The position numbers and the translations under genes were made by a program. Source: Punctularia strigosozonata HHB-11173 SS5 (Eukaryota; Basidiomycota; Agaricomycetes; Corticiales; Punctulariaceae). From it: 28,628 nucleotides of DNA. This document shows, in pieces, positions 6,525-25,510 of this stretch; the stretch's first letter is position 1, and each line of letters begins with the position of its first letter. The notes under the pieces were generated by a model. It was not told the DNA's origin, did not search any database, and saw only the letters and a list, made by a program, of their open reading frames with translations. Where the stretch lies: assembly GCF_000264995.1 (NCBI RefSeq), contig NW_006767447.1, positions 392,307-420,934 on the forward strand, written 5' to 3'.

Positions 6525-6987
6525 TGTTGAGGATGGTGCTGGATCAGTCTAGGTGGTTACCATCCATCATTCCCCTTGGTCACCGCTTTTCTGGCTGCTC
6601 TGATCATCATTGGATGCTGGTCTGCTGGCTATATGTCTCCCATCTGTTCACATCAGTTGGCACTGGTGGGTTGACCACACAACTGATGCAACCGGTCCCA
6701 CAGTCAGTTGGTTGCTTAGATCACTGATTCCAACTGTCCATCTCCACATGCTTGATCCTTATCTCCCTAGCTTCGATGTCTCCCTTTGTTACCTGTTACC
6801 ATAGCTTCCATCATAGCTAGATGTATTTAGGGAGCAGGCAGAGTCCTCAGACTTCGACTCACGGCTCCATTCCCTTGCTCCTAGGCCTGTCTCTAGTTGT
6901 ATCTCAATAGACTTCGACCCACAGCTCCATTCCCATGCTCCCAGCTCCCAGCTCGCTACAGCGCGTCAGACAGCCCCCTACGCTGTT
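6525..6987 (+). repeat. 3' LTR of copia-1
   Basis: It is the partner of the LTR at 1138. It starts TGTTGAGGATGG and ends in the shared GCTGTT at 6987. Beyond this point the sequence turns into minus-strand reverse transcriptase of copia-2, so copia-1 either landed inside copia-2 or lies at a rearranged junction. The copia-2 continuation is not found on the far side near 1137, which favours a rearranged or eroded junction. Confidence 0.88.
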
Positions 6988-12028: not shown

Positions 12029-12780
12029 CGCCTGCGTCCACAATTGGACTGGACAGGGATAGGACCGTGGACGTCCATGTGAATGAGGTCCAGGGCCTCT
12101 GACGCCCACCAGGAGGCCCTCAGAGGCACAGGAGGCCAGTGCAGCTTGCCCAAGATGCAAGGCTCATAGATGGCATCTGGAGCGGTGTCTGAGTTGAGCT
12201 TGAGGCTGGAGACGCTGTCCTCCTTCAGCATCCGGCGCACGTAGTCCACGTTGACGTGCCCAAAGCGCCAATGCCAGAGCTCCAGGTCCAGGGCGCAGGT
12301 GCTGGCAGGCTGGGCGTGCTCCAGGGCTGGCAGGGTGCACCTGTTGACAATGGTGGCATTGGAATCACTCACAGACACGGTGAACAGCTTGGTGGTACCT
12401 CGAACAAAGGCCATAAGGCCCCTGGTGATCACAACACGAATGGATTTGTGCTGAGTGAGATACAGGACTGATAGGAGGTTAGAGCAAAGCTCTGGGACAT
12501 GTAGCACCCTGGTCCACTCCACTAGATGTGATTCCTGACCCTCCACCACTGGCTGGAAGTGAACGGAGCCAACACCGATGGCATAGACGAGTATGTGAGT
12601 CAGCAGGGCAAATGGGGACGTTGTAGGGCATGTAGGAGACGAACCAGTGATGGTGAGGTGGCATATGAGCAGTGGCCCCTGTATCGGCGGTCCAGTCAGC
12701 GCTGGGGACGTCTAGAACAGTGGGGAGGGGCTCAGGCAACAAGGAGACACTTGCATTGCCAGCCAACTCGACATGGATGG
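12029..12780 (-). pseudogene. copia-2 protease and N-terminal integrase (fossil)
   Basis: The minus strand shows the aspartic protease (PSADWTADTGATAHM), the hydrophobic LHVPELCSNLLSVLYL segment, the integrase zinc-binding region (LELWHWRFGHVNVDYVRRML with downstream cysteine), and LDLIHMDVHGPIPVQSN, the start of the integrase core. All have counterparts in the same order in copia-1. It lies next to the LTR at 12781. It is part of a broken element. Confidence 0.85.
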
Positions 12781-13228
12781 TGTCAGGGTAAGCACTGGAC
12801 CTCCTAGGAGCAGCGTGGATCCCTTGGGATGGTGGCAGAGACGCTGTCGCACAAGCCAGGAAAGCAACTGAGAGAACAAGTCTGAGTTGCTCCCCGGTGC
12901 AACAGGCGACTATATAGCAGCTGAATAATCCATCAGCAAAACAAGGGACGGTCCAATGAGAGAGAGGGAGGCTCCTCAGGTGCCTGGCACGTGACCAGTG
13001 TAACGGCCTAGGAAGGCTGCACAATGTGCAGAGGCCCTAGGAGTGCTGAGTGGCAGAGCCAACAGGGGAAATGCCAAAAGGAGCATGCGGGAAGCCTAGG
13101 AAGGTGTGGGAGAGTATGGCCAAATAGGGAAGTGGAAGCATTAGGAGGTATGAGCAAATGGGGAAAGAAGTGGAACCAAAGGGGAAACAATGGGGGCATG
13201 AGGCAAGTGTGGGAGGCATGCCCTGACA
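12781..13228 (-). repeat. LTR of copia-2
   Basis: On the minus strand it runs from TGTCAGGGCATG to a CTGACA end, with 6-bp inverted termini TGTCAG/CTGACA. It matches the solo LTR at 20791-21303 throughout except for an extra duplication in that copy. A TATA-like CTATATAG lies at 12910-12917. No target duplication is visible here. It is the left (5') LTR in the orientation of copia-2. Confidence 0.88.
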
Positions 13229-14537: not shown

Positions 14538-15496
14538 NNNNNNNNNNNNNNNNNNNNNNNNNNNNNNNNNNNNNNNNNNNNNNNNNNNNNNNNNNNNNNN
14601 NNNNNNNNNNNNNNNNNNNNNNNNNNNNNNNNNNNNNNNNNNNNNNNNNNNNNNNNNNNNNNNNNNNNNNNNNNNNNNNNNNNNNNNNNNNNNNNNNNNN
14701 NNNNNNNNNNNNNNNNNNNNNNNNNNNNNNNNNNNNNNNNNNNNNNNNNNNNNNNNNNNNNNNNNNNNNNNNNNNNNNNNNNNNNNNNNNNNNNNNNNNN
14801 NNNNNNNNNNNNNNNNNNNNNNNNNNNNNNNNNNNNNNNNNNNNNNNNNNNNNNNNNNNNNNNNNNNNNNNNNNNNNNNNNNNNNNNNNNNNNNNNNNNN
14901 NNNNNNNNNNNNNNNNNNNNNNNNNNNNNNNNNNNNNNNNNNNNNNNNNNNNNNNNNNNNNNNNNNNNNNNNNNNNNNNNNNNNNNNNNNNNNNNNNNNN
15001 NNNNNNNNNNNNNNNNNNNNNNNNNNNNNNNNNNNNNNNNNNNNNNNNNNNNNNNNNNNNNNNNNNNNNNNNNNNNNNNNNNNNNNNNNNNNNNNNNNNN
15101 NNNNNNNNNNNNNNNNNNNNNNNNNNNNNNNNNNNNNNNNNNNNNNNNNNNNNNNNNNNNNNNNNNNNNNNNNNNNNNNNNNNNNNNNNNNNNNNNNNNN
15201 NNNNNNNNNNNNNNNNNNNNNNNNNNNNNNNNNNNNNNNNNNNNNNNNNNNNNNNNNNNNNNNNNNNNNNNNNNNNNNNNNNNNNNNNNNNNNNNNNNNN
15301 NNNNNNNNNNNNNNNNNNNNNNNNNNNNNNNNNNNNNNNNNNNNNNNNNNNNNNNNNNNNNNNNNNNNNNNNNNNNNNNNNNNNNNNNNNNNNNNNNNNN
15401 NNNNNNNNNNNNNNNNNNNNNNNNNNNNNNNNNNNNNNNNNNNNNNNNNNNNNNNNNNNNNNNNNNNNNNNNNNNNNNNNNNNNNNNNNNNNNNNN
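14538..15496. other. Assembly gap (959 N)
   Basis: This is a run of N. True content and possibly true length are unknown. It follows a gypsy gag, so the collapsed or unresolved sequence is probably repetitive. Confidence 0.99.
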
Positions 15497-16152
15497 AATA
15501 TTTGAAAAAGCAGTAAATTTAATTAAAAGCATGCTATGTAGAAGTAGGTCAGTTGCTATTTAGTGCTATATAGAAATTATACGTAATATAGTTCAAAGTA
15601 CTAGTTACATAGTGATATATAGCTTATAGGTGCAGTCAATATAGCACTCATAGATTTGGTATGTATCTGTATAGTGGTGATAGCAGGGCTCCCAACTTAC
15701 ACCTACCATGATTGAAGTCAGTGTCAGGTCCTGAACTGTAATGTTAGCTTATACATTATCAGATATATGCATGAATAAAATATGTACAAGGTGGCTAAGT
15801 ATCAAGGAGCTTCTGCTATGTGAATGGACATAGTGGCCAACGCGGACTTAGAGATTCAACGTGAAATCATGTGTCACGTGACAGCCTCCGGTTTGTCATC
15901 TTAGCCCACCGTGCTGGCAAGTACACTCAACATTGCGCTGGCAAGAGCGTTGTGATGTGAATAAGATCAAGAGTGATCAAAGTGTGTTCACATGGTTAGT
16001 ATCTCAAGTGGCACAATCAGAGAGTTCAAGTCTTGTAACTAAGCAACTTGAGAAGTTACAAAAGTTGCCCCTCCTCTGTTGGGACCTTGGTGTACTTATA
16101 TTCTACCGTAAGTCCCTAATAATATAGAAGTGGAGCATGCTGATGAATCAAA
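15497..16152. other. AT-rich stretch without a supportable gene
   Basis: The first 150 bp carry TATAGC/GCTATA-like motifs and an ATATAGTTCAAAG segment, resembling the subterminal parts of TE1 and TE2, so a further copy of that family may be partly hidden in the gap. The remainder shows no open frame or motif of note. It ends at the left inverted end of TE1. Confidence 0.4.
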
Positions 16153-16164
16153 CATCTGAAAAAA

Positions 16165-16420
16165 TCTAGATCACTATATGGCACTACATAGTCCTATGTA
16201 GCCTCCATAGGTCCATAGCAATGTCCTTTTGCTACCCATGCTAAATATCTGCAAGCCAATGCTATCATAGTGCTACAGGTGCTATAGTAGGTACTGTTAT
16301 GGCTACAGTAGCTATGTAGGTCACACCTCAGTGCTACATAGCTCACACATCAGTGCTATTGAAACTATATATCCCATGTAAACTCTACAGCCACCATATG
16401 CTCAATGGATATTGTAGTCA
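16165..16420. repeat. Left subterminal TATAGC/GCTATA-rich tract of TE1
   Basis: Many short copies of GCTAT, CATAGC and GCTACATAG occur in both orientations. The matching tract of TE2 (22450-22690) shares the order of motifs, including CACTACATAGTCC near the start and an ATATGCTCA segment near the end. Clustered subterminal motifs of this type are binding sites for transposase in some DNA transposons; that role here is inference. Confidence 0.55.
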
Positions 16421-16722
16421 TCTAAGTAAAAGTGCTTTTTATTTACTTATTATTTAACACATGTAATCATTCAAAGAATTATTGATTTCATCATATCATA
16501 TACAACTTACAAAAGTGTAACCAATGCTACTCGTCAACGTATCAATTACATAAGCACTACAGACATGCAACAGATGAGGTCAGACAGACAAGGGGGCCAT
16601 GGTAAATGCACGGTGCATGCATTGCGTTGACCGGACCGGGCACATTGCATCGGCCAGGAAGAAGGCAGGGCAAGAGGCGGGGAGGCACTGGACAAAGGCT
16701 GGTGTTTGGTGGGGAGGCAAAG

Positions 16723-17272
16723 CCAAGCATGACCGCATTCACAGCTGGGGCTCATGCTTGGGGGAAGGAGGGCAAAAGAGGAAGCCGAGCCTGATCACGT
16801 TGGTGGCTCGGGCTCTGTGACGGGCGGAGGTAGGCCAGGCATTAGGTGGAGGTGGGCCAGAGGCAGGAGGGTGGCAGGGAAGCGACACCAAACACAGCCA
16901 CGTTGGCAGCCTGCACTTGGTGTTGGACGAAGGGGGGAGTGAAGGGGGCCACGAGGGTGAGAGGCGACACCGAATGTGATCGCACTGGTGGCTCACGTTC
17001 GGCATTTGATGGAGGGCACGAGGGTGAGAGGCAACACCAAACACAACCATATTGGCAGCTCGTGTTGGGCAAAGGAAGCCGCAAGGGTGAGAGGTGACGC
17101 CCAATGTGAGCACATTGGTGGCTCGTGTTTGGCGTTGGGCAATGGGGGCTGCGAGGGTGAGAGGCGATGCCAAATGCAACCACGTTGGCGGCTTGCATTT
17201 GGTGTTGGGCAATTGAGGGTGCAAGGGAGGTAGGCAATGCCAAGCCTGACCACATTGGCGGCTCATGCTTGG
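16723..17272. repeat. Array of ~8 hairpins with changing arms and constant loop
   Basis: Units begin at 16723, 16785, 16888, 16970, 17037, 17100, 17170 and 17240. Except for the first (19-base loop), each is 10-base arm, 13-base loop, 10-base arm. Perfect or nearly perfect examples are CCAAGCATGA/TCATGCTTGG, CCGAATGTGA/TCACGTTCGG (one G-T pair) and CCAAATGCAA/TTGCATTTGG. Loops follow roughly NCACGTTGGYRGC. Arms differ between units but remain complementary, with paired changes at arm positions 3 and 5 to 9. The units at 16888, 17037 and 17100 pair less well. Linkers carry GAGGGTGAGAGGCGA-like sequence, with a period mostly of 62-70 bp. Open frames crossing the array look like by-products of GC-rich repeats. 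Confidence 0.75.
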
Positions 17273-17353
17273 TGGGGTGTGCACTTGTCGGCACAGAGAG
17301 GGCAACGGCACACTTGCCAGTGCCGCGTCCAGTGCCTTTGCAAGCATGTGAGC

Positions 17354-17497
17354 CAGTGCACTGGCAAGCCCGGCAGATAGTGCACTTGCCAGCACGGTGG
17401 GCAGCACACTTTCCAGCACGGTGAGCAGTGCACTTGCCAGCGCGATGGGCAGTGCTTTTGCCGGCACGGTGGGCGGTGCACCTGCAAGTGCGGTGGA
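17354..17497. repeat. 24-bp tandem array (about 6 units)
   Basis: Clear units start at 17378, 17402, 17426, 17450 and 17474, with a weaker one before. The consensus is close to CAGTGCACTTGCCAGCACGG plus TGGG. Read on the minus strand it encodes an eight-residue repeat like CTAHRAGK, but I see no evidence for translation. It lies in the core of TE1, right of the hairpin array, and is absent from TE2. Confidence 0.75.
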
Positions 17498-17764
17498 CAA
17501 AGACAGTGAGCTGGACTCGGAGACTTGAGTTAACCAAATATGTCATGATTTGATCATGTGACCTGTGTCAGGTGCCACGTTGATTTGTCTTGAATGTATA
17601 AGTCCAAGTGCCTCCCTCAGATAGCACAAACTTATTCACCTTGTAGATAGTTAGAAGTATATATCATCTAACAGTATATAGAGATATTGACATTGCAGTT
17701 CAAGACCTGAGTAATGAAGGTATATGAGAGACAGGACGGAGTGCGAACGGAACAAGCGGCTGGT

Positions 17765-17922
17765 CTAGTAGATAGATAAGTCTCACTGCTCGGGTATGGG
17801 AACAAGTCCATATTCATGTACCTAGTAGATAGATAACTACGGTACATTAGCTTTCGGTACAGGGTATATACAAAAGAGGGACTCACGTCTCACTGCTCGG
17901 GTATGGGAGCAAGTGAGACGTG
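17765..17922. repeat. Short direct repeats and a strong hairpin in TE1
   Basis: CTAGTAGATAGATAA occurs at 17765 and 17822. A 28-bp segment starting GTCTCACTGCTCGGGTATGG occurs at 17780 and 17887 with one difference. The second copy forms a hairpin at 17884-17922: CACGTCTCACT pairs with AGTGAGACGTG, then GCTC with GAGC past one unpaired base, around an 8-base loop. A further AGTGAGAC follows at 17933. Confidence 0.7.
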
Positions 17923-18104
17923 CACTCGCGAAAGTGAGACGATTATCTGAGGCAGAAGTATAAGTTTTCGTGTCCTAATAAGTCCATACCATGCGAAGGC
18001 ACACGCGCCGTGCGCGCAATGGCCGACACGACGTCCGTTTGCATGCTCATCAACCGTTTATCTCCAGCACTGAGACTGGTTTATATCATGGTATTGTGAA
18101 ATGG

Positions 18105-18350
18105 CAGACCTGCTATCACCACTATACAGATACATCCCATATTTATGGGTGCTATATTGACTGCACCTATGAGCTATGTATCATTACATAGCTATAGCAC
18201 TGCACTATGTTGTCTTTAAATACTATATAGGGCTATGTAGCAACTGACCAACATCTACATAGCACTCATAGCACTCTATAGCAACTAACCTACATCTATA
18301 TAGCACCCATAGCACTACAATAGTGACTATAGTTCTGAGGGGCAGCTATA
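18105..18350. repeat. Right subterminal TATAGC/GCTATA-rich tract of TE1
   Basis: It has dense GCTATA, TATAGC and CATAGCACT motifs, ending in AGTTCTGAGGGGCAGCTATAT just inside the right inverted end. TE2 has the same order at 23480-23735, ending AGTTCAAAGGGGCAGCTATA. This supports common descent of the two elements. Confidence 0.6.
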
Positions 18351-18372
18351 TGGATCAAGATTTTCTCAGATG

Positions 18373-20790: not shown

Positions 20791-21303
20791 TGTCAGGGCA
20801 CGGCTCCCACACTTGCCTCATGTCTCATTGTTCTCCTTTCTGCTTCCGCTTCTATCCCATTTTGTTCATTTCCCCTAATACTTCTGTCTCCCTATTCGGT
20901 CACGCTCTCCCGCGCCCTCCTAGGCTTCCCGCGCCCTCCTTTTGGCATCTCCCCTATTTTGTTCCATCGCTCGGCGCTCCTAGGGCCTCCGCACCCCGCG
21001 CGGCCTTCCTAGGCCACTCCACTGGTCACGTGTCGGGCACCCGAGGACCCTCCCCTGCTCTCATTGGACCATCTTTTGTTGCGCTGATGGATTACTCATC
21101 TACTATATAGTCGCCTGTTGCACCAGGGAGCAACCCAGACTTGTTCTCTCAGTTGCCTCCCTGCCTTGTGCGACAGGTATGTGTACTTCTCCTCATATCT
21201 TCGTATATATACTCAGTTGCCTCCCTGCCTTGTGCGACAGCGTCTCCACCGCCGTCCCGGGGGATCCGCGCCGCTCCTAGGAGCTCCAGCGCGTACTCTG
21301 ACA
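20791..21303 (+). mobile_element. Solo LTR of the copia-2 family with GATAC target duplication
   Basis: It runs from TGTCAGGGCACGG to ACTCTGACA, with inverted termini TGTCAG/CTGACA, and matches the copia-2 LTR. GATAC stands directly on both sides (20786-20790 and 21304-21308), a perfect 5-bp target duplication. Solo LTRs arise by recombination between the two LTRs of a full element. This copy contains an internal repeat: a 29-bp segment at 21148-21176 recurs at 21212-21240 with 35 extra bases between. The LTR lies antisense to the surrounding coding text. Confidence 0.93.
21063..21110 (+). promoter_or_regulatory. LTR promoter elements
   Basis: ATTGG (a reversed CCAAT box) at 21063-21067 precedes CTATATAG at 21103-21110 by about 36 bp inside the solo LTR. 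The same pair is kept in the copia-2 LTR. It would drive transcription rightwards, antisense to the interrupted gene, if still active. Confidence 0.5.
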
Positions 21304-22928
21304 GATACTATGTCCTCCCGGTTGGTGGAGACATCTATTGAACTCCGGACTGTCCTCAGCCTGTTGAGTGTACCCTCTCTTGTTGGCTACAGCAAGAAGT
21401 GCATCCTTCAAAGTGCTTATGAGCCACCAACAGGCAAAATTTTCCAGTATGCAGAGCTCGCGACCGACAGGGCCTAGTTCACCGAGTGAGATGTGGTCCA
21501 AGTTCTGCCTGTCATTGCGGTACACAACGAGTGGCACGTAGTGCCATATGGGTTCAGGCGACGCATATTGACCCTCTGAGCTGGGCTCTACAGATGGAAG
21601 GGAACGGCCATGGATGCTTATGTGGAACAGAACATCTGCCAGGATAGTCAAACACTGCCCTAAAAGGGTGCATGGGATGAACCGAAACCAAATCGCCGAT
21701 CCGTCCACTTCAATTCCTACTGCACCACCGCATGGCACCTCCTAACAGCCTGCCAAACCGGGTCTTTCGGAGATATGAGCGTACGGGCGGTCGCCTTCAC
21801 GAACCCGAGCATGTCGACAAAGCGGATGAGCATGGGTCCATGTTCATGCTCCTTGCCTGGAGCATAGTAGCAAATTTCTAACAATAGACTGCCGCAGATG
21901 TTATTGTCAGACGAGAAAAGGATAATGTGGCATGGCGACTTTACATTTGATTGGCGACATTGCCTCTGCCCTTTTGCAGTTTGCATATGACTTTACTCCG
22001 ATGGTCGTCGATTACTTTGACTGGATCTGCTTTGCGCAGACTCTGTCGTGAGGCCTTGGAGTGGACTTTGCCTGATCCTGATGGTGCCAGGGAAGGACCA
22101 TCGACTGCCATTGCGGAGGGTTTTGGCAGTCATAGATGTCATCCAGATGATGAGGACAGATCAACACATCAGGGGCGTACCTCTCGATGGGATTAGAGGT
22201 CTTGGGGAAACCAAGGCGGATACCGAGAGTGTGCACAACCTCCTCCAGGTTGTTCAGCAAGGCATGAAGACGTGGGCGATCGACACAGATCTCTTTTCCG
22301 AAAGGGCCCAACGTGCGCAGATCAAGCGTACAACGAGCAGGCCAACCACCAACGCCAGGAGGTTCAGATAGGGCCCGAGGAATGTAATGCGCTGCGGGAA
22401 ACGTTTTACCATCCAGATCTTGAGCGTAATCATCTGTAAAAAATCCCATGACTATACAGCACTACATAGTCCAATATAGCATACATAGTTCCATAGCAAT
22501 GTCAATTTGTGTAGGTGCTATGGAGCTGCCTGCAGTTGCTATAGAGGTACCTGCCAGTGCTATAAAGTGCTATGGGTGCTATAGATCACACTGCAATGGC
22601 TATATAGCACAGTGCCAATGCTATGGGCACTACAGATACTATGGCAATTTGGTAGTCATCATATGCTCAGTAGATGCTATGATTAATCAGACAAGAAACT
22701 AAAATACTCAGAAACTAAAATACTTCAATAATGTTTGATTTTGAAAACAAATATTTGGATTGCATAATTTTCTACAAAATTACACCAGTGCTACCAGCCA
22801 GCTTACGTAAGCATCTCACACAAACATAACCCTACATAGGTAGAGTCAGAGGTGAGGATGGAGGTGGAGGCGGAGGCGAGTTGATCAACGAGCCCCGCGC
22901 AGCTCGTCGAGGGGGGTGGGAGGTGAGG

Positions 22929-23083
22929 CCAAGCCTGACCACGTTGGCAGCTTGGGCTCGGGGCTGGTCAAAGGCCGGCACGGGGTGGGGGGGCCAACAC
23001 CAAGCCCAACCGCGCTGGTCGGAGGCGGGTGCGGGGGACGGGATGCGACACCAAGCCCGATTGCGTTGGCAGCTCGGGCTCAG
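22929..23083. repeat. Two TE1-type hairpins in the TE2 core
   Basis: At 22929-22961 the arms are CCAAGCCTGA/TTGGGCTCGG with loop CCACGTTGGCAGC; pairing is 7 standard, 2 G-T and one mismatch. At 23051-23083 the arms are CCAAGCCCGA/TCGGGCTCAG with loop TTGCGTTGGCAGC; the seven loop-proximal pairs are perfect. A third site near 23000 has the left arm but no matching right arm. Arm and loop lengths are those of TE1. Confidence 0.6.
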
Positions 23084-23659
23084 GGCTGGTCAAAGGCAGG
23101 CGCAGGATGGGGTGGGAGCCGTGCCAGGCTCGTCGACAAGGGAGGCGGCGGGGTCGTGGCTTGTTGAGGGTGGGGAGGGCGGGGGCAGGGGCGTGGACTG
23201 ACTTGTGTTGACGGGCTGTGGCCACGTCAAACATGGGTCATGTGACCATTGGTTGGTGGCAACGTGTGCCGCGGTAACATTGGTCACATGACCACCGGTC
23301 CAAACCCAAATGGATCCTAGTATACTGTGTTATAGTTAATGTTCATATATAAGCTTATATGATACTATACACTGATACTTCACTGTACAGGCTGAATATT
23401 ACCCCAGAACTAATGAAGATCATAACATAGTGTGAGTTGGAAAGTCTGCTGTAGTTTCTATATAAGTATGTACCAAAACTATGTGTGCTATATAGACATA
23501 TATCCAAAGCTATGGGTGCTATATGGACGTCACTATGAGCTATGCATTGCTATATAGCTGGTGTATTAAGCTATAAATTGCTATGCAGCACCCCATAGTG
23601 ACCGTCATAGTCTCCATAGCACCCTATAGCGACTGTTATGGTCTACATAGCGCTCTATA

Positions 23660-23864
23660 GCAGCTAGCTGATCACTCTATAGTGCACATAGAGCTACTAT
23701 AGCAACAATAGTTCAAAGGGGCAGCTATATAAATTTGGGTTTTTTCAGATCAAGTTCGTCTTAGCTTTGCCATCGCAGCTAGCTGATCACTCCATAGTGC
23801 ACATGAGCTACTATAGCAACAATAGTTCAAAGGGGCAGCTATATAGATTTGGGTTTTTTCAGAT
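23660..23864. repeat. Duplicated right terminus of TE2
   Basis: A segment of about 90 bp starting GCAGCTAGCTGATCACT and ending GGGTTTTTTCAGAT occurs at 23660-23750 and 23775-23864 with few differences. The 24-bp spacer starts CAAGTTCGTC. Either the terminus was duplicated in place, or a second truncated copy lies at the end. Confidence 0.8.
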
Positions 23865-23865
23865 G

Positions 23866-25510
23866 ATTGTGTCTGGTCAGCTGTGAGCCTAATTCCTGTC
23901 CTCGCTTGTACCGCTCGGCGTGCTTCGGCGGTTTCTTCTGGTGGGCATCTCCCAAGGGTCTGGAGGTTTTTGTGATAGTCCCTGGCTGTTTTTGCCATCT
24001 TCATTGAGTTGGTGATGAACTCTGGTTCTCTTAGGTGTCTGAACTTGGGGTTTCGGAGCTTCGTGAGTGTATCTCTCAGGTGTCTGTCTTTGTTCACCGC
24101 GGACCAGTATTTGGATACTACTTTTCCTTTTATCTGGTTGTGTGCTGCTGAGTTCATGCGGGTCTTCGTGTGTTTTTCCTGCCTCTTGTCTGCTATTTTT
24201 TTTTTAATATGGTGCACATAGTGGCGCGTTCTCCTTCATCTGTTTCTGTGTCGTTTAACATTTTCTCGAGCTCCTCCTCGAGGGATACTATATCTTGGTC
24301 TATTCTTGGGATCATTTTGCATTGTAAGTCCCGCGTACTTCTTTCTAGATCCTTTTTGAATTCTGCCAGTAGTGTTTGGGGGTTCCACATCAGGGATCTG
24401 CATTTAGCGCGCATGCACTGTTAATGTCTTTTTGGAGTTCCTTTGCTCGTTCTCTCAGTGTCTTGATTAATGTGTCATTCTTTAGCATGTGGGTGGGCAT
24501 CGCCCATCTGCCTTTCCCAATGTAGGGTTTACTCATGTCGGTCAGTTTCACCAAGACCATTTTGTGGTCAGTTTCTATGGCACTGGGCTGTTCTATTTGC
24601 CATCCGTCGCATCCCCAGAGGGTGTCCTCCATTGCGTAGATTCAGTCGATTTGTGAGTGTGAGCTTACCACATTCTGAGTGTAGCTGTATGCGAGTTTGC
24701 CCTCGTGGTCTATCCTCCAGCCGTCGTGCATATTCATTTTTGCTTTTAGGGTGCGAAAGGATTCCGTGGCTTTGCCCTGGTCCTTGTACATCAGCAGCCT
24801 GTCTAGTTTGTCCTCCACTATATTGAAGTCTGCCATCATGAAGTTGGGTTTTGGGAGCTTCTCCCATCTCCACTTTCGTTAGATGTTACGCCAGAAGTCG
24901 GAGTTCTGCTGCTCGTCGTTTGGTGCATACACTCCTAGGATTCTGAGTTCTCTGTCCTGGTGCCATGGTATCTTTAGCAGCAGTACTCTTCCTGGCAGTA
25001 TGTCTGTTACTTCTGCACCTTCTGCATTCGTTAGTTCTCGGTCCAGCACAAATGCTAGGCCTCTTGCGGCGGTCGGTGCGTCTTCGTCTTCGGAATTCAT
25101 GATTTGCAGTCTTTTGCTGAAAACTGACTCTATCTGTCCTTCCAGTTCGTGTGTTAGGTGTGTCTCCTGTAGGAGGAGTATTCCGATTCAGCTGTCCCAT
25201 ACAAGTTGGTTTATTTGGAACCATTTGTTGTAGGGTCAGTCCGTGCTTAGGTTGGTCGTGTCACCTCTGCCTCTCATGTTCAGGCTCGCTATTTGACTGT
25301 CGCTATAGTGTTTTTGCAACACTTAGGTTGTCCTGGGATCTTGCCCGGTTTGGGCATTTCTTCCGGTTCCCACATTGCGTCTTCGTCAATTTCGAAGGTG
25401 CAGTCGTCCCAGGGGTGGTCGTCCCCATCTTTGTCAAGGGCTCCATCTTCATCTTGCGGCGGGGAGCGATCACAACTGGTCATCTCCGATCTCACTTCAT
25501 CTCCATCCAT
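23866..25510 (-). pseudogene. LINE ORF2 remnant: AP-like endonuclease and linker
   Basis: ORF2 of such LINEs encodes an endonuclease that nicks the target and an RT that copies the RNA there. Seen here: an acidic lead (MDGDEV..., 25510-25290), then, in another frame, IASLNMRGRG near 25280, QETHL near 25165, RGLAFVLDRE near 25055, RILGVYAPND near 24930, MADFNIVEDKLDR near 24830 and AIETDHKMV near 24575. These are the exonuclease-endonuclease-phosphatase motifs (Asn, Glu, Tyr, Asp-Phe-Asn and Asp-His, with TDH for the usual SDH). Lysine- and glutamate-rich linker follows to RLTADQTQ at 23870, where TE2 starts. In-frame stops occur at 25239, 25190, 24881 and 24644, with frame changes near 25290 and 24400. 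It is dead. Confidence 0.8.

Follow-up and report, generated by a model that had tools for sequence, protein, structure and literature searches.

The window, by which we mean the whole stretch of 28,628 nucleotides analysed here, was taken from the 33.6 Mb genome of Punctularia strigosozonata (32 contigs), where it occupies C15:392307-420934 on a 749-kb contig. Within it lie a DNA transposon, TE1, and a related element, TE2, both carrying copies of a short hairpin unit. The features are as follows.

16153-18372, + strand: TE1, DNA transposon of 2,220 bp in which no gene was recognised, delimited by end motifs and target duplication
16723-16761, + strand: hairpin unit 1, arms CCAAGCATGA/TCATGCTTGG, loop of 19 bases
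16785-16817, + strand: hairpin unit 2, arms CCGAGCCTGA/TCGGGCTCTG
16888-16920, + strand: hairpin unit 3, arms CCAAACACAG/CTGCACTTGG
16970-17002, + strand: hairpin unit 4, arms CCGAATGTGA/TCACGTTCGG
17037-17069, + strand: hairpin unit 5, arms CCAAACACAA/TCGTGTTGGG
17100-17132, + strand: hairpin unit 6, arms CCCAATGTGA/TCGTGTTTGG
17170-17202, + strand: hairpin unit 7, arms CCAAATGCAA/TTGCATTTGG, paired at 10 of 10 positions
17240-17272, + strand: hairpin unit 8, arms CCAAGCCTGA/TCATGCTTGG
17354-17496, + strand: second tandem array in TE1, with a 24-bp unit (CAGTGCACTTGCCAGCACGGTGGG) present in six copies
22431-23865, + strand: TE2, related element with B-type ends, AT/AT flanks
22929-22961, + strand: TE2 hairpin unit, arms CCAAGCCTGA/TTGGGCTCGG
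23051-23083, + strand: TE2 hairpin unit, arms CCAAGCCCGA/TCGGGCTCAG

The original prediction of about eight repeated units with 10-base arms at 16723-17272 of the window, inside TE1, was borne out with eight units. The proposed design of a 10-base arm, a 13-base loop and a 10-base arm holds nearly throughout, with a 13-base loop in seven of the eight units and unit 1 as the exception.

TE1 terminates in CATCTGAAAAAA (left CATCTGAAAAAATC..., right ...GATTTTCTCAGATG) and is flanked by AA/AA. The termini of TE1 and its relatives read CATCTG and then a run of A, and in 13 two-ended copies a CATCTG-type sequence is present at both termini as inverted terminal repeats. A genome-wide search for the end pattern gave 42 matches at no more than one mismatch, and the element ends fall into two sets, A (TE1) and B (TE2). 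Leaving aside an alternative right end of TE2 that lies further in, a 2-bp target duplication (TA, TA, TG, AC, TT, AA, AT, AG, CA) was found in nine of the 13 two-ended copies and was mismatched in four. The right end of TE2 stands in a tandem duplicate (23691-23754 and 23805-23869, 98% alike over 60 nt), the inner copy of which starts with GATCTG instead of CATCTG.

KDZ and Plavaka transposases were found elsewhere in the genome, which, with the copia-type ORFs of the window, would suit a mushroom-forming fungus or a relative of one. One KDZ fragment (C3:1090394-1091073) is some 7 kb away from the left end of the one-ended copy C3:1098027. Among the best candidates for Plavaka (PF18759), KDZ (PF18758) and DDE_Tnp_4 (PF13359), none was located between two recognised ends, several of the copies containing N stretches. 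Two minus-strand ORFs of 253 and 234 aa span the TE1 hairpin array. The Pfam scan returned no family for these two or for three ORFs from retrieved stretches, the latter chosen from up to three ORFs listed for each of 15 stretches. The transposon family carrying the hairpin arrays is probably non-autonomous.

A hairpin unit shared by 24 arrays

A loop-only search of retrieved regions of the same genome yielded 158 hairpin units in 24 arrays. A unit was accepted when at least 12 of 13 bases matched a degenerate loop pattern and a neighbouring unit lay on the same strand, and clusters in chosen regions were kept. Unit 1 of TE1 does not satisfy this loop criterion and was included manually for the TE1 difference, per-array, CpG-pair and re-pairing tests. 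At least one recognised element end is present in the DNA examined for 21 of the 24 arrays, the exceptions being C1_372900, C6_1791500 and C15_371300. As N runs lie in or beside several arrays, these may exceed their readable length. Such arrays form a satellite-like tandem repeat, with a spacing often near 70 bp, inside inverted-repeat DNA transposons.

The intact unit, CCGAGCGCGA-CCGCGTTGGCGGC-TCGCGCTCGG, occurs verbatim in four of the 158 units, with one further match at C17:397736. In B-type elements CCGAGCCCGA/TCGGGCTCGG or near forms are frequent. The intact unit folds at −28.5 kcal/mol with 14 bp paired: a stem of 10 bp is separated by a bulged C from an inner stem of 4 bp, which is closed by a GTTG loop. 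An open 13-base loop is ruled out by the pairing of CCGC with GCGG within it. On C17, between 396700 and 398850, hairpin units adjoin on opposite strands, perhaps as two neighbouring or nested insertions.

In TE1 the arms form Watson-Crick pairs at 67 of 80 positions, or at 72 counting G.U. When the eight left and right arms were re-paired, the mean was 52.6 Watson-Crick pairs and 67 or more were reached in 22 of 40,320 re-pairings (p 0.0005 with all positions, 0.0009 when position 5 is left out and 0.0038 for the CpG columns alone). Under a strict rule of at least nine Watson-Crick pairs of 10 and a loop of 10-19 bases, the array contains four hairpins, whereas 200 dinucleotide shuffles gave 0.10 on average and never more than 2.

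The pairing excess extends to the other arrays. Own arms form on average 7.65 Watson-Crick pairs of 10, compared with 7.29 after shuffling within arrays and 6.98 after shuffling across all arrays. None of 2000 within-array shuffles was as high, the own arms pairing slightly better than shuffled ones. Without TE1 the values are 7.70 versus 7.43 (z 4.2). In a per-array test of the 20 arrays, out of 24, that contain at least four units, five gave p<0.05 (TE1 0.0010, C1_372900 0.0007 and three at 0.03-0.05). Over the 14 arm and inner pairs, 85.9% of cells are standard, and sliding the partner by 1-3 columns lowers this value to 30-38% (153 units). Five units fold much better than their own shuffles, with z from −4.1 to −5.9; in several units most of the pairing of one arm is lost.

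CpG decay of arms and loop

The TE1 units differ from the intact unit at 52 arm positions; C>T and G>A account for 44 of the differences, and 35 of the 44 fall on CpG sites. The observed/expected CpG ratio of the TE1 array is 0.57 (TG+CA 1.67), in contrast to 1.27-1.51 in arrays on C10, C17 and C13, and TE1 therefore looks like an old, decayed copy. According to the accessible part of PMC4352252, transposable elements of basidiomycetes show C>T changes at CpG that are linked to deamination of 5mC. The CpG-depleted TE1 shares with those fungal elements (PMC4352252, same part) the C>T and G>A changes at CpG in repeats; its decay is read here from sequence, and methylation would be the presumed cause.

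The arms of the intact unit carry three CpG sites, each of them opposite a CpG of the other arm, so that independent deamination yields seemingly compensated pairs about half the time. After two independent hits, TG with CA is compatible and TG/TG or CA/CA is incompatible, with roughly equal chances. For this reason the premise of the original prediction that pairing would be lost under neutral decay does not hold here, most of the decay being C>T on both strands at CpG sites that mirror each other. Its second premise, a loop that stays constant, did not hold either: transitions per site at CpG columns of TE1 amount to 0.381 in the loop and 0.345 in the arms (seven units with 13-base loops). 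Non-CpG loop columns do change less (any change, loop 0.082, arms 0.196), and the loop looks constant mainly on account of these columns, which hardly change. In family A (126 units) the corresponding CpG-column transitions are 0.135 in the loop and 0.157 in the arms; counting any change, its CpG columns vary more in the arms (0.230) than in the loops (0.140), the units having been collected by their loop.

Arm CpG pairs outside TE1 (149 units) were compatible in 27, incompatible in 21 and one-sided in 105 cases, against 23.6, 22.3 and 109.2 expected if hits within an array are independent. The 27:21 ratio of double hits gives a one-sided p of 0.24. Within TE1 it is 12:2 (p 0.0065), and over all arrays 39:23 (one-sided p 0.028), or 49:34 with the inner site included; given the TE1 value, the pooled lean comes mostly from TE1. 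One-sided G.U and A.C pairs are balanced outside TE1 (52:53) and stand at 3:1 within it.

Origin of the paired differences

Two-sided Watson-Crick changes relative to the intact unit had been proposed for arm positions 3 and 5 to 9; they were seen there and also at position 10. TE1 stands out among the decayed arrays: compensated and one-sided changes occur in it in a ratio of 18:10, compared with 4:30, 7:21 and 7:30 in the three arrays next lowest in arm GC. Among 132 close unit pairs, defined by at most eight differences across flank and loop and sharing units with one another, 28 compensated arm differences face 269 one-sided or broken ones. The 37 closest pairs (at most four differences over 53 flank and loop sites) give one compensated difference and 52 others.

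Two misregistered matches (C10:667538 and C8:241055) were omitted from the tree-based tests, as also from the per-array, close-pair, CpG and slid-column counts given above. A tree-based null was simulated with Fitch-fitted column rates on trees built from 53-73 columns, which are weak for that reason. The pairing excess summed over 19 pairs was greater than in all 400 simulations. Three of the 19 reached p<0.05 on both measures, namely 5-29 and 7-27 strongly and 8-26 weakly; none of the other 16 did so, one outer pair passing on a single measure. The proposed covariation is thus present beyond the tree null at positions 5 and 7 and weakly at 8. Covariation above the phylogenetic null in most helix pairs, as looked for in a structured RNA, was not found. 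Over the ten arm pairs, the compensated changes in which both sides alter within one branch add up to 18 on the full tree, and to more on a tree built without the arms.

In an all-against-all ranking of 1,075 column pairs, for which two further units with N in their flanks were omitted (153 left), 7-27 came first, 5-29 second and 8-26 34th. Restricted to family A (1,198 column pairs) the ranks were 19th, 7th and 53rd, among unpaired spacer columns, so that position 7 largely reflects the split between families A and B. The old unit types differ by G-C/A-T at position 5, which lies outside any CpG, by G-C/C-G at position 7 and by C-G/A-T at position 8. Intermediates are found at all three positions (11 A-C, 8 G-G and 7 A-G, respectively), and with those at positions 5 and 8 stepwise change suffices. 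At all three, the paired differences look like genuine differences between a few older unit types.

Taken together, we consider it likely that a hairpin founder unit was amplified in a satellite of the transposon and that subsequent CpG decay mimics covariation. The arm matches mostly look like C-to-T decay of a mirror-image sequence and are no proof of a purposeful fold. The founder would already have been a near-perfect hairpin when it was amplified, presumably by unequal exchange or slippage. Units may have spread both with the element, moved by a transposase probably supplied in trans, and by tandem duplication, one unit type being present in 24 arrays. They would then have decayed mainly by C>T at CpG on both strands of a putatively methylated (5mC) element. 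At mirrored CpG sites independent hits would turn G-C into A-T, G.T or A.C, and two-sided pairs would appear without selection. Several results weigh against this decay explanation: the own-arm excess, in TE1 also without position 5 and at CpG columns alone, the excess over all 400 simulations, the top ranks of 7-27 and 5-29, the CpG-free position 5, the higher rate of any change in arms than in loops at CpG columns of family A, the TE1 ratio of 12:2 with the pooled 39:23, and the CpG-richer array C1_372900, which is as extreme as TE1 and, with a CpG ratio of 1.11 in the part measured, is not CpG-poor.

Some of these results would be met by hairpin template switching (quasipalindrome correction), in which the strand folds back in the course of replication and one arm is recopied from the other, so that both arms would change at once and the hairpin would be restored without any selection. 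According to the part of PMC8794818 at hand, compensated changes in hairpins can arise by template switching. Such copying agrees with the unit types whose arms differ in pairs at positions 5, 7 and 8, with own-arm pairing above within-array shuffles and with the compatible double hits of TE1. It also agrees with unit 7 of TE1, since three compensated pairs and zero one-sided changes separate this unit from its close relative C13:65196. Yet the closest unit pairs are almost devoid of compensated differences, intermediates are common at positions 5 and 7, and CpG sites outside TE1 are without clear coupling; chance alone would moreover be expected to leave all three CpG pairs compatible in about one of eight fully decayed units. 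Paired two-arm changes without selection would result here as in the template-switch hairpins treated in that part of PMC8794818; unlike those, the changes in our arrays are mostly one-sided and of CpG type, and intermediates are present. Since the TE1 units share ancestry and the array was picked for its pairing, the TE1 excess gives a modest hint of templated correction only. Fold-back arm copying that re-perfects the hairpins of TE1 and of a few founder units while their sequence drifts, without selection, is an unlikely account of the data.

Selection might also act on the pairing itself, whether it serves a structured RNA or a fold-back DNA site for a protein; we regard this as very improbable. 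Own-arm pairing above shuffles, the five strongly folding units and the contrast between in-register and slid columns are in line with selection, but inherited, decaying hairpins also predict the slid-register contrast, and several units have lost most of the pairing of one arm. A selected RNA would favour one-sided G.U over A.C; RNA selection was rejected on the equal numbers outside TE1, the 269 versus 28 differences of the close pairs lend it no support either, and no Rfam family was found at the array. The single Rfam match in the window lies elsewhere and reaches 27.1 bits versus a gathering score of 84, and was rejected. Selection for a DNA fold has little support from the double hits, which lean to compatible pairs when TE1 is included and hardly do so outside it. 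The two readings first offered for the hairpins thus fared differently: RNA selection is unsupported and selection of a DNA fold finds little backing, while hairpin-templated copying is possible for the old types and TE1, though not required. Chance hairpins from GC-rich repeats can be dismissed with near certainty. Tandem repetition and a high GC content would favour them, and the folding of the full 550-nt array surpasses that of shuffles only moderately (z −2.81 as RNA; z −3.56 as DNA, other strand), but the strict-hairpin count, the recurrence of the unit in 24 arrays and its pairing in register only rule them out.

The proposed amplification of a hairpin founder followed by CpG decay has a practical consequence. 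Inverted repeats that decay at CpG can mimic RNA covariation, with paired changes about half the time, and a null model that takes CpG into account is needed when repeat-derived hairpins of methylating genomes are tested for covariation. Nothing fitting on this caveat was found in the open-licence PMC literature searched. If fold-back arm copying were true, a hairpin shape would be inherited without selection, against neutral CpG decay in sister arrays. With CpG-rich and CpG-poor arrays in one genome, a natural system for testing fold-back copying in eukaryotic repeats is available.

Related elements and neighbouring repeats

Non-autonomous DNA transposons with internal tandem repeats are a known kind of element, and the hairpin unit makes the TE1 family a variant of it. 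Repeated hairpin units also occur as double-hairpin elements in fungal mitochondrial genomes; unlike these, the units described here lie on a 749-kb contig, inside a transposon and in tandem arrays. No fungal element with the hairpin-array design of TE1 was found in the open-licence PMC literature searched. The original claim of a design without a described fungal counterpart thus stands for that literature, while the kind of element is known.

The closest comparison is Tetris, a foldback DNA transposon of Drosophila virilis with internal TIR-220 tandem repeats (PMC4079207, in the part consulted). Like TE1, Tetris is apparently non-autonomous and has expanding internal tandem repeats, and in that part of PMC4079207 no transposase copy is reported for it. 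The Tetris repeats measure about 220 bp and lie in the terminal inverted repeats, whereas the hairpin unit of TE1, spaced at about 70 bp, is interior and the terminal repeats are short (PMC4079207, same part). Long terminal inverted repeats of the Tetris-like foldback type were not found in TE1, and among the inverted repeats of at least 25 bases listed none has both arms within the element. For the foldback-like Galileo, PMC4079207 mentions, in the same part, extra transposase sites in internal tandem repeats. By analogy, the internal tandem repeats of TE1 could multiply protein-binding sites, and the array may once have given a transposase extra places to bind; the Galileo sites are reported (PMC4079207, as mentioned there), those of TE1 are a guess, no transposase being known for its family.

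Further repeats accompany both elements. AT-rich zones lie near the ends of TE1 and TE2 (16160-16400, 18100-18372, 22440-22660 and 23440-23865) and appear by eye to consist of short palindromes resembling CTATATAGC/TAGTGCTATA, a second repeat type. The right part of TE1 is repeated to the left of the element and outside it, as an inverted match of 15532-15701 with 18095-18264 (80% complementary). A truncated minus-strand relative, its extent judged by eye, seems to extend from the N stretch at 14538-15496 in the direction of TE1. At a distance of about 8 kb, inverted repeats at 12770-13228 and 20791-21314 (77-85% complementary) bracket the TE1 region. Direct repeats at 1138-1594 and 6525-6987, 85-98% alike depending on the segment, flank ORFs with copia-type gag and reverse transcriptase domains (Pfam); together they are an LTR retroelement.
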